A DNA stretch of 64,000 nt from SAR324 cluster bacterium REDSEA-S27_B3. GTDB taxonomy: Bacteria; SAR324; NAC60-12. The position numbers were made by a program, and so were the translations under genes. The stretch covers positions 1 through 64,000 of the forward strand of contig LUQO01000012.1 of assembly GCA_001627865.1 (NCBI GenBank), in the 5' to 3' direction. Each line of letters opens with the position of its first letter. Positions within the stretch are counted from its first letter, which is position 1. Positions 12,350 through 16,172 of this stretch are shown here, one piece after another. Under the pieces are notes generated by a model. The model saw only the letters and a list, made by a program, of their open reading frames with translations. It ran no database searches and was not told the DNA's origin.

Positions 12350-13372
12350 TCACGAAGCCTGATGGTTGGCCCATGAATAATTGATTAAATTTGTAAGTTT
12401 TTCTGCTGCTTTACCACTGTCAACAGTTTTTGCCGCCAATTCAACACCTTCTTCCAGGTCATCAACCAGACCTGAAACAACCAACGCACCTGAGGCATTT
12501 GCCAAAGCAATTTCACGTGCAGTACCTCTCTCATCACCAGAAAAAATTCTTTCAATTATCCGTGCGCTTTCTTCCGGAGTATCAATACCAATCTCCTTTA
12601 AACTCCCAGTTTTGAGTCCCAATTGTTCCGGAGTTACTTCATATTCCCGGATATTACCATCACGCAGTTCAGCCACGTGTGTTGGGGCTGTTACAGTCAA
12701 TTCGCAAAGACCGTCATGTCCATGTACCACTAAAACACGATCACTACCTAATCGTTTAAGGACCTGTGCTAATTTCAGCGTCAGTTCAACATTCGGCACA
12801 CCAATGAGCTGACTTTTTGCTCCGGCAGGATTTGTAAGAGGACCCAGCAGATTAAAGACGGTAGGAACACCCAATTCTTTGCGTATCGGTCCGGCAAAGC
12901 GCATTGCAGGATGGTGATTGATCGCGTAACAAAAACAAATATCCAAATCCTTAAGGCAGTTTTCAACTTCATTTAATTCCAAAGCTATATTTACGCCTAA
13001 TGCTTCCAATGCTTCAGCACTGCCGCTTTTTCTTGTGTTGCTGCGGTTGCCGTGCTTGGCAACAACTGCTCCAGCGCCGGCAGCAATTATTGCGGCGCAT
13101 GTTGAAATGTTGAAAGTGCTGATTCCATTTCCTCCGGTACTGCAGGTGTCAATAGTATTTTTTGGCGCTTTAATTCCGGATGCACGCTCCCGCATAGCCA
13201 GAGCGGCACCTGCCATTTCATCAACTGTCACGCCCTTTGCCTGCAGCAAGGCTAACAGTGCCGCTGCCTGCACAGAGACAGCATCTTCACTCATGATCCA
13301 TAGAATCATTTCACGTGCTTCTTCAAAGCTGAGTTCATCTGCTGCCAGTAATTTTTGCAGTAATTCTTTCAT
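12350..13372 (-). CDS. trpD: Anthranilate phosphoribosyltransferase
   Basis: Second step of tryptophan synthesis, joining anthranilate to PRPP. The 340-aa length is normal. The glycine-rich PRPP motif reads STGGNGISTFNIST, a small variation on the common GTGGDG form. The anthranilate-site segment KHGNRSNTRKSGSAEALEALG and NLLGPLTNPA are clear. It starts 9 bp after the stop of the NadD/CinA-like gene, so the two are likely in one transcript. No other trp genes are nearby. Confidence 0.95.
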   Translation of the reverse strand: MKELLQKLLAADELSFEEAREMILWIMSEDAVSVQAAALLALLQAKGVTVDEMAGAALAMRERASGIKAPKNTIDTCSTGGNGISTFNISTCAAIIAAGAGAVVAKHGNRSNTRKSGSAEALEALGVNIALELNEVENCLKDLDICFCYAINHHPAMRFAGPIRKELGVPTVFNLLGPLTNPAGAKSQLIGVPNVELTLKLAQVLKRLGSDRVLVVHGHDGLCELTVTAPTHVAELRDGNIREYEVTPEQLGLKTGSLKEIGIDTPEESARIIERIFSGDERGTAREIALANASGALVVSGLVDDLEEGVELAAKTVDSGKAAEKLTNLINYSWANHQAS

Positions 13373-13381
13373 GTTATTAAA

Positions 13382-14536
13382 TCAATGTTGTTTGTTTAGT
13401 TCTTTTTCAGCCCAGGTCAGCGCTTCTATCACAAACAGCAGCTGATGCTCCTTGCGTGTAAGAAAAGGATTAAACTCCAGACACTTATACCTGACTTCAG
13501 ATGATAAAGCCAGATCATCAAATTCTGTAATACCTAAAAATTGTTTTTGTGCTTCCTGATTATAGATAATTCTGCCATCAAGAAAATGCTCTGAGGCTCC
13601 CGAAAGACCGGTGAAAGCCTGAGCAAGTTGTCCGCCCGTGGTTGTTTCCACTACAGCAAAGCGGTGAGGTTGTTTGCTTATTGCCTGTTGATCAAGTGTT
13701 TTTTTAAGCCTCGTGGCTGCTTCGTCCAGCTGCTCTTTCAGTTCAAAACAGCTCAGCTGGTGTTCATTTAAATACTTAGGCTGTACGACATGGGACGGTT
13801 TATGATTATTGTATAAACAGTTTTGCGATACATGCCGTGCTGCATTTTCCGGCAAAAAAGATTCCAGAGAGTGTCCTGCCTGAGACGCTTTGCGAATATG
13901 TGTTGAAGAAATAAGAAAAAATTTGTGCAGATTCTCCGGCAGAACCACAGGAGAAATCAGAGAGACATCTAATTTCACGCCACGTTCTTGTTTTATTAAC
14001 TTTAAAGTATGATTTATATCAATCTCATTACGCGGAGCGGCAAGCAGGCGGCTGCCTTTTTCGATTTGAGTTAAGTCACCGTCAGTGAAAATTATTGGAT
14101 CTATCATGCGTTCAATCAAATCTGCCCCTACAATCATTGAGACTTTCTGCCCTGCAGAAAAATTGTTTACGTGATCCGCCAGTCGCATGGATTTTCTGTA
14201 TGATAATTCCCAACTGGAAACAGCACAGTTATCATTCCTCAATTTCAGTAAAACTCCGGATTTTTCCGCAAATTGTGCCGGCAGAGATTTTTCAGGATCA
14301 GACCATTCCCTAAGCGCGCTTCTTAATATTTCATAGCGCAATGAGGCTTGTAGAATTTGTCCGGATTTGAATGGGTCAGGATGTCTGCCATTGGAAAGAA
14401 TGAAAATTATTAATTGTGTTTTCGGAAATTGCCACAGTACGCACTCAGCCAATGACAAATGGTTGTACCCCACCGGGTTTGCAGTCAAGGGGAAATAAAT
14501 GGTGTTCAGTTTACCCTCAGCAGTTGAGAGGTACAT
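13382..14536 (-). CDS. Fusion of a degenerate NadD-like nucleotidyltransferase and a CinA-C/PncC-like domain
   Basis: Residues about 1-245 look like a nicotinate-nucleotide adenylyltransferase fold. TANPVGYNHLSLAE sits where the (T/S)xNPxHxGH motif should be, and ISSTHIRKASQAGHSLESFLPENAARHV matches the C-terminal ISSTxIR block. The first catalytic His is Gly and the motif Gly is Asn. Residues about 265-384 resemble the CinA C-terminal amidase: VVETTTGGQLAQAFTGLSGASEHFLDGRIIYNQEAQKQFLGI. The usual Ser of AES(C/L)TGG is Thr, the Lys after YSNEA is Gln, and the later GIAGPxG segment is absent. Both halves therefore point to NAD metabolism while both active sites are altered. The function is unknown. 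Confidence 0.7.
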   Translation of the reverse strand: MYLSTAEGKLNTIYFPLTANPVGYNHLSLAECVLWQFPKTQLIIFILSNGRHPDPFKSGQILQASLRYEILRSALREWSDPEKSLPAQFAEKSGVLLKLRNDNCAVSSWELSYRKSMRLADHVNNFSAGQKVSMIVGADLIERMIDPIIFTDGDLTQIEKGSRLLAAPRNEIDINHTLKLIKQERGVKLDVSLISPVVLPENLHKFFLISSTHIRKASQAGHSLESFLPENAARHVSQNCLYNNHKPSHVVQPKYLNEHQLSCFELKEQLDEAATRLKKTLDQQAISKQPHRFAVVETTTGGQLAQAFTGLSGASEHFLDGRIIYNQEAQKQFLGITEFDDLALSSEVRYKCLEFNPFLTRKEHQLLFVIEALTWAEKELNKQH

Positions 14537-14624: not shown

Positions 14625-16172
14625 TTATTGCATTTGTTGAACATCTTTTTGCAATAACTGTAAATTCAGCAGTTTAAGTGTTGCATTGACTGCGGCAATA
14701 ACCTGATCAGAATCAATGCCGACAGTTTGAAGACGTTTTCCGTTCACCTGCCATGTAATGATTGCTTCAGTGAGTGCGTTTGTTTTCCCGCCTCGTGGAA
14801 TCCTGATTTGATAATCTACAAGTTCCGGTGAATCAAGATGCAGCTTTTTCAGTATTTTGTTTACTGCACTCATAAATGCGTCATATCCGCCGTTTCCGCT
14901 CCCAGCTTCTCGATACTCTTTTGAATCAATTTTAAGATGTATTGCGGCAGTAGCCTTTAAGTTCAATCCACTTGAAATGGAACAATTCAGCAGCTCAATC
15001 CGTTGAGTTTCGCTTGTTTCCAAAACATCTGTAATGATGAACGGCAAATCAGCCGCAGTCATTGATTTTTTTGAATCACCCAGTTCAACAACACGTTTGA
15101 GCACTTTATTCAGATTTTCATCAACAAGCTGAATGCCCAGCAATTCAAGGTTTTTTGCAAGTGACGCTTTACCGCTCATTTTGCCGAGAGCATAGCTTCT
15201 TTTGCGCCCAAAACGCTCCGGAGCAATCGGATTGTGATATAAATTTGCTTTTTTATCACCGTCTGCATGAATCCCGCTGGTTTGAGTGAAAACATTTTCG
15301 CCAACAATTGGTGCATTATCCGCAAGCCTTTTCCCTGAAAAGCTCTCTACCATCTCACTTACCGGCGCAAGACTAGACTCGTCTATTGAAAGCTCCATTC
15401 CAAGTTTGTCATGCAGAGCAACCACGATTTCCGCAAGCGAAACATTACCTGCTCTCTCACCAAGACAGTTCATTGTACAGTGAACATTTCTAACCCCGGC
15501 CTTAACAGCAAACAGCACATTAGCCACACCCAGGCCATAATCATTATGAGGATGAAAATCAAAAGTTGCCCATGGGAATCTCTCGATCATGTCTGAAAGC
15601 ATGTTAAAAACCTGATCCGGAGACAGCAGCCCAAGTGTGTCCGGCAGCATGAAATGATTGATGCCTTCATCTTTCAGCGCATCCATCATCTGGAAAACAT
15701 ATTTGGGACTGTTATTATATCCGTTGGACCAGTCTTCAAGATAGATGTTGACATTAACATTATTTGAATGGGCATAATTTATCGTTTTTCTGATATCTGC
15801 AACATGCTCCTTTAGTGTTTTACGAAGCTGATTCCTGCAGTGGTTTTCGCTTCCTTTGGTCAATAAATTCATTACTCTGCAGCCTGCTTCCTTAATCCAG
15901 TCTACACTCCGTTTATGATCGATGAATCCCAAAACTTCGATTGAGTCCAAAAAACCATTATCCTTTGCCCATGCTGAAATGTTTTGCACTGAGCTTAACT
16001 CACCTTCTGAGATTCTTGCTGAAGTTACTTCAATGCGATCAACACGCAGCTTCTTCAGTAGTGATTTAGCAATGTTTGCCTTTTCCGGCGGAGTGAATGA
16101 GACTCCCTGAGTTTGTTCTCCATCCCTCAGAGTGGTGTCCATTAATTTAACTTTGTTATTCAAATCAGACAT
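14625..16172 (-). CDS. 2-isopropylmalate synthase / citramalate synthase family protein
   Basis: Condenses acetyl-CoA with a 2-oxo acid. DTTLRDGEQTQGVSF carries the catalytic Arg-Asp pair, DFHPHNDYGLG the metal-binding HxH, and GERAGN the third family signature. The C-terminal about 110 aa (LNCSISSGLNLKATAAIHLKID) resemble the LeuA regulatory domain. The sequence is of the divergent subgroup with IEVTSARISEGE and YLEDWSNG, which differs from canonical LeuA. Whether the substrate is 2-oxoisovalerate, pyruvate or another oxo acid cannot be decided. The next gene in the unit is the NadD/CinA-like fusion. Confidence 0.85.
   Translation of the reverse strand: MSDLNNKVKLMDTTLRDGEQTQGVSFTPPEKANIAKSLLKKLRVDRIEVTSARISEGELSSVQNISAWAKDNGFLDSIEVLGFIDHKRSVDWIKEAGCRVMNLLTKGSENHCRNQLRKTLKEHVADIRKTINYAHSNNVNVNIYLEDWSNGYNNSPKYVFQMMDALKDEGINHFMLPDTLGLLSPDQVFNMLSDMIERFPWATFDFHPHNDYGLGVANVLFAVKAGVRNVHCTMNCLGERAGNVSLAEIVVALHDKLGMELSIDESSLAPVSEMVESFSGKRLADNAPIVGENVFTQTSGIHADGDKKANLYHNPIAPERFGRKRSYALGKMSGKASLAKNLELLGIQLVDENLNKVLKRVVELGDSKKSMTAADLPFIITDVLETSETQRIELLNCSISSGLNLKATAAIHLKIDSKEYREAGSGNGGYDAFMSAVNKILKKLHLDSPELVDYQIRIPRGGKTNALTEAIITWQVNGKRLQTVGIDSDQVIAAVNATLKLLNLQLLQKDVQQMQ

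Follow-up and report, generated by a model that had tools for sequence, protein, structure and literature searches.

On the minus strand of the window (the whole stretch of 64,000 nucleotides analysed here) lies a gene, 13382..14536, whose open reading frame, family matches and homologues characterise the 384-residue product as an NMNAT/NadD-like domain joined by a helical linker to a truncated CinA-C-like domain; all features of the locus given below are on this strand. The N-terminal domain (residues 11–245; 13802..14506) is recognised by TIGR00482, by a profile match to NMNAT1/NadD structures, by a profile-profile match to the canonical SAR324 NadD, and by Foldseek. The remnant of the CinA-C/PncC-like domain (residues 284–384; 13385..13687) scores over the cut-off of PF02464, the match being confined to residues 284–338, whereas relatives match nearly the whole model. 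Downstream, trpD (12350..13372) follows after a gap of 9 bp (13373–13381), and a gene of the citramalate/isopropylmalate synthase family is located upstream (14625..16172).

The genomes compared are grouped into genera, of which g1 is that of the window (genomes G000–G016, with G000 the window's genome), while g4 is represented by G019 and G025, and g8 by G023. The adjacency to trpD, which a preliminary description of this DNA had pointed out, is real as far as the 9-bp gap is concerned but does not extend beyond g1, and it was rejected as functional evidence; the synthase gene is linked to the fusion in g1, g2, g4, g7 and g8, and four loci from family f2 have no neighbour in common with the window. 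Gene neighbours therefore say little about the function of the fusion.

A two-domain family of the SAR324 order

Within its first 245 residues the window protein matches TIGR00482 with 43.4 bits (E 3.8e-11), and its C-terminal half matches PF02464 with 40.3 bits (E 3.3e-10; gathering cut-off 23.5 bits), a model matched by all 27 aligned family members. Both resemblances lie well above chance. The equivalog cut-off of TIGR00482 (112.45 bits) is reached neither by the window protein nor by its relatives (28–68 bits), and the same is true of TIGR00199, the model of the NMN deamidase PncC (cut-off 68.9 bits), for which the window protein scores 34.6 and relatives 43–60 bits. Together with Foldseek comparison of an intact relative, these matches bear out the fusion of NadD-like and CinA-C-like domains that had been proposed from the sequence alone.

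When related genomes were searched, 15 of the 16 genus-mates proved to have a two-domain homologue, as did most genera elsewhere in the SAR324 order. A family profile detects the fusion, whole or partial, in 39 of the 41 genomes sampled from the order (a tally which includes two fragments, in G029 and G035, and a copy truncated at the end of its contig, in G040), among them 16 of the 17 genomes of g1; the substitutions noted in the preliminary description are largely common to these relatives. None of the 11 other genomes of the phylum has the fusion; they match at most in the CinA part. The sample consists of MAGs or SAGs throughout, with a completeness of about 51 to 92% in g1. Single-sequence scans of genome and viral contigs yielded no relatives, an alignment scan retrieved SAR324 fusions only, plus three Chloroflexi loci matching the CinA part alone, and no phage homologue was found. 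Present in 39 of 41 genomes within the order and in none of 11 outside it, the fusion is therefore an old, order-wide invention and not an oddity of the window's genome.

Active sites, predicted structures and a private deletion

The first motif of the NadD family, GGxF(D/N)PxHxGH, reads PLTxNPxGxxH throughout the fusion family, with an invariant Gly at the position of the first His and an invariant His at the last. In the window protein it is PLTANPVGYNH, so that GYNH (residues 23–26; 14459..14470; G23 and H26 invariant) replaces HxGH; the GG of GGxF is replaced in every member, whereas canonical NadDs of the same order keep HxGH. A second peculiarity is the loop LSNGRHPDPFK (residues 47–57; 14366..14398), of which SNGxHPDPxK is nearly or fully invariant in the family and which is longer than the xPxxxPFK segment of NadD. 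In the domain as a whole 29 columns are invariant, the HL, GxD, R and SSTxIR elements are retained, and the canonical SAR324 NadD aligns with it from end to end. GADL (residues 137–140; 14117..14128; G137 and D139 invariant) aligns with GADL of human NMNAT1, and ISSTHIR (residues 209–215; 13892..13912) contains the invariant SSTxIR.

With NadD (TIGR00482, COG1057) the N-terminal half thus shares fold, motif order, GxD, the conserved Arg and (I/L)SSTxIR; it differs in GxxH for HxGH, the rewritten GGxF, the extra SNGxHPDPxK loop, the fused C-terminal domain and a score far below the equivalog cut-off. Its best sequence matches among solved structures are dual-specificity NMN/NaMN adenylyltransferases, among them eukaryotic NMNAT1 (1kqn, 9iw1), with which it has the run GADL...(W/F)...D...R...SSTxIR in common. 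However, identity in structure alignments is 16–18%, Gly stands for the H/T of the first motif and Phe for Trp at the LW/IF position, and the domain is part of a bacterial fusion. In FAD synthetase, exchange of either His of HxGH for Ala abolishes adenylyl transfer (PMC3509593), and in cyanobacterial NMNAT-C the corresponding exchanges lower activity (PMC13036487). Hypothetically, H52 of the conserved loop could replace the lost His.

The C-terminal half shares with PncC/CinA-C (PF02464, COG1546; 2a9s, 4ct8) the ExxxGG, SGAS, Tyr and TGMAGP blocks; the window protein contains SGAS and lacks the GIAGP motif. In AtCinA, Ser31 is the nucleophile and Lys63 is catalytic, and the S31A and K63A variants are inactive (PMC5384747). 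By alignment, the window copy has neither residue: ETTTGG (residues 297–302; 13631..13648) replaces ESCTGG and places Thr at the position of the nucleophile, and in YNQEAQ (residues 325–330; 13547..13564) Gln occupies the position of Lys63, with the Tyr retained. Across the family the Ser31 position is mostly Thr, in some members Ser and in one Ala; the Lys63 position is Gln in g1, g4 and one further genome, and Lys elsewhere. Thr for Ser is thus common, Gln for Lys mainly a trait at genus level. All motifs quoted in the preliminary description (GYNH, ISSTHIR, TGG, SGAS, Thr for Ser, Gln for Lys) are present as written. The lack of GIAGPxG holds for this copy and not for the family: in relatives the segment is GMAGP, lacking the last Gly, and an in-frame deletion of 147 bp with its junction between D341 and L342 (13513..13514) has removed it from the window copy, 49 residues including GMAGP being gone. 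The loss is private to the window copy, as all aligned genus-mates have GMAGP there; each species was represented by one genome.

The AlphaFold2 model of L002, an intact relative of 433 residues (pLDDT 89.9, pTM 0.87), was compared with known structures by Foldseek. It matches the CinA-C structures 2a9s and 5v01 with TMt 0.84 and 0.89, single-domain CinA structures in general with 0.75–0.89, and the NMN/NaMN adenylyltransferases 1nup, 1kaq and 3e27 with 0.75, 0.79 and 0.81; TMt for NMNAT/NadD folds overall is 0.62–0.81, and the nucleotidyltransferase fold is present. Relatives thus have the complete CinA-C fold, with GMAGP at the GIAGP loop, and the window copy does not. Its model keeps an N-terminal domain of high confidence, the residues around 338–345 are disordered, and its 48 PDB matches at E ≤ 0.001 consist of adenylyltransferases alone, with no CinA among them; the deletion therefore most likely breaks the C-terminal domain of this copy.

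What remains of that domain matches L002, L003, L004 and L008 at 77–81% over 93 positions, as intact copies match each other, and the deletion may therefore be recent, or tolerated, or an assembly fault. Close pairs within the genus give dN/dS of 0.14–0.31 for the N-terminal domain where dS is usable (0.82 in one pair that has hardly any dS) and of 0.05–0.24 for the C-terminal domain; for the N-terminal half of the window copy the value is about 0.15–0.17. The N-terminal half is under purifying selection. Of the two findings that the preliminary description had named as speaking against it, a decaying gene applies in part to the C-terminal half in the window and not to the family, given the dN/dS of its C-terminal domain, and a missing structural match to CinA-C applies to the window copy and not to intact L002. 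In another member of the genus (L007, in G013), the fusion gene is split between the two domains by an in-frame TGA around position 2209.

NAD genes of the genus

No match to canonical NadD or to NadC was obtained in the 17 genomes of g1, in g4 or in g8, and NadE was likewise not found in these genomes, in which only weak partial PP-loop matches occur; the protein behind a weak PF02540 match in the window's genome is of the GuaA type. In the rest of the order the majority of genera have both NadD and NadE, several have NadC, and genera with canonical NadD and NadE keep the fusion too. In the 16 g1 genomes carrying the fusion, no other NadD-type protein was found. The other PF01467 proteins of the window's genome are RfaE2, an HldE-like protein, CoaD and RibF, which leaves the fusion as the sole NMNAT-type candidate found there. 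The separate RfaE2-type adenylyltransferase and the divergent HldE-like kinase/adenylyltransferase (L041:1210-1746, L044:340-1734) differ in that the second domain of the latter reads NGYFDDISAGH and the RfaE2 protein NGCFDILHAGH.

A gene of the NAMPT type is present in the window's genome (L127:6578-7966, plus strand, contig G000:C52) and is the sole NAMPT in g1; apart from it, neither NAPRT nor NAMPT was found in the genomes of g1, g4 and g8. Its product scores 544 bits to NF006629, has a NAMPT_N domain, and its PDB matches are nearly all named NAMPT; the name "nicotinate phosphoribosyltransferase" attached to NF006629 was rejected for this protein, as PDB and Pfam show the nicotinamide (NAMPT) type. 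Contig and window agree in tetranucleotide profile (r = 0.97); the gene has a GC content of 49.5%, against 41% for the window, and was possibly acquired. NAMPT converts nicotinamide to NMN, from which an NMN adenylyltransferase makes NAD without NadE. An NAD/ATP translocase (TLC) or PnuC was considered as an escape from NAD synthesis and rejected for g1, in which neither was found; TLC, and PnuC where searched, had no matches in g1, g4 or g8 genomes.

Proposed function and comparison with known systems

Profile and fold comparison establish a SAR324-specific family in which a domain of the NMN/NaMN adenylyltransferase fold is joined to one of the CinA-C fold. As to function, we infer adenylyl transfer to NMN (or NaMN) by the N-terminal half and a non-catalytic role of the C-terminal half. 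The explanation put first here, held tentatively and with slightly less than even confidence, is that the former is a divergent NMN/NaMN adenylyltransferase and the latter a non-catalytic nucleotide-binding or dimerising domain, broken in the window strain. The N-terminal half would bind ATP and NMN (or NaMN) via the retained HL, GxD, R and SSTxIR, with the first motif re-modelled into GxxH and the invariant SNGxHPDPxK loop, and would transfer AMP to yield NAD (or NaAD), a step for which the fusion would be the only candidate in the marine genus g1. The C-terminal half, without the Ser/Lys pair of NMN deamidase, would most likely bind a nucleotide or dimerise; in the window strain, minus its 49 residues, only the N-terminal half is likely to work.

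For this assignment speak the conservation of two-domain homologues across the order, the best structure matches of the N-terminal half, its fold, its 29 invariant columns and the purifying selection on it, and, as regards the C-terminal half, the inactivity of AtCinA S31A and K63A. In addition, the NMN produced by NAMPT in the window's genome needs an NMN adenylyltransferase, and since NadC, NadD and NadE have all been lost in the genus, a working enzyme is a better reading of the N-terminal half than the sensor or regulator of NAD intermediates suggested in the preliminary description. It is also suggestive that loss of the Lys and of a third of the C-terminal domain would fit a NadE-less cell, because there a working NMN deamidase would be wasteful. 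Against catalysis counts that no member keeps HxGH's first His or the GG of GGxF, and against a NAMPT-NMNAT route the confinement of NAMPT, within the genus, to the window's genome; NAD uptake could make NMNAT unnecessary in the genus. Further, the original role of the fusion need not be NAD assembly because genera with canonical NadD and NadE keep it as well.

Unlikely, though in keeping with several of these findings, is a protein in which both domains bind ligand without catalysis and which senses NMN, NaMN or NAD and regulates something else: alterations affect both active sites and, in motif I, the entire family, mutational data show that both His of HxGH matter (PMC3509593, PMC13036487), and the fusion coexists with canonical NadD in many genera. 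However, the family never departs from SSTxIR, GxD or the terminal His, the genus yielded no further NMNAT-type protein, NAMPT is present in the window's genome, and a partner, DNA-binding or output domain was not apparent. That decay or an assembly fault, and not a functional variant, lies behind the window copy appears quite unlikely; the private 49-residue deletion, the lost CinA matches of the model of this copy and the in-frame TGA in L007 of the same genus point that way, but the reading frame is uninterrupted, what is left of the C-terminal half is as conserved as in intact relatives, and the low dN/dS of the N-terminal half speaks against it. An adenylyl- or cytidylyltransferase for another phosphorylated substrate, selected by the CinA-like domain, is improbable: the SNGxHPDPxK active-site loop is new and invariant, the fusion is conserved alongside canonical NadD, and the upstream link in several genera is to the synthase gene and not to NAD genes, but by profile and by fold the closest matches are to NMN/NaMN adenylyltransferases and not to other nucleotidyltransferases, and the partner domain likewise stems from NAD metabolism. 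Least probable is a bifunctional enzyme that recycles NMN, by way of NaMN, to NaAD in Lys-keeping relatives, secondarily reduced to the adenylyltransferase step in NadE-less lineages, for which speak the Lys63 equivalent, kept in most genera with NadE and lost in two of three without (g1, g4), and the mostly kept Thr of TGMAGP, a Lys/Thr mechanism having been proposed for TtCinA (PMC4246079), and against which speak Thr, Ser or Ala at the Ser31 position, other CinA/PncC-family proteins in several f2 genomes, and an association resting on few genera with exceptions in both directions (g8 has Lys without NadE, g6 NadE without Lys).

The adenylyltransferase reading may be extended: a new NAD-forming enzyme with a re-built first motif would alone carry out final NAD assembly in a ubiquitous marine genus of SAR324 and would be gated through NMN binding by a fused, dead NMN-deamidase domain. 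In this full form it is doubtful. If true, abundant ocean bacteria would have replaced the NadC/NadD/NadE route by a fused, re-modelled enzyme and would depend on outside pyridine precursors, this class of enzyme would not require HxGH, and the way in which uncultured SAR324 are supplied with NAD would become directly testable.

No description of a NadD–CinA-C fusion was found in the literature, and the sequence comparison covered genomes of the phylum and non-eukaryotic genome and viral contigs. In certain plants a nucleotidyltransferase may be combined with a CinA-like domain; a literature search for this pairing gave nothing. Known fusions of the NAD cycle include COG1058-PncC and NadM-Nudix (PMC3680494) and NadR (PMC3855486), and further CinA fusions are mentioned, without particulars, in a survey of NMN deamidases (PMC3855486). 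While none of the three named fusions pairs a NadD/NMNAT-type domain with a CinA-C domain, they have in common with the SAR324 fusion that two domains of the NAD cycle are carried on one chain.
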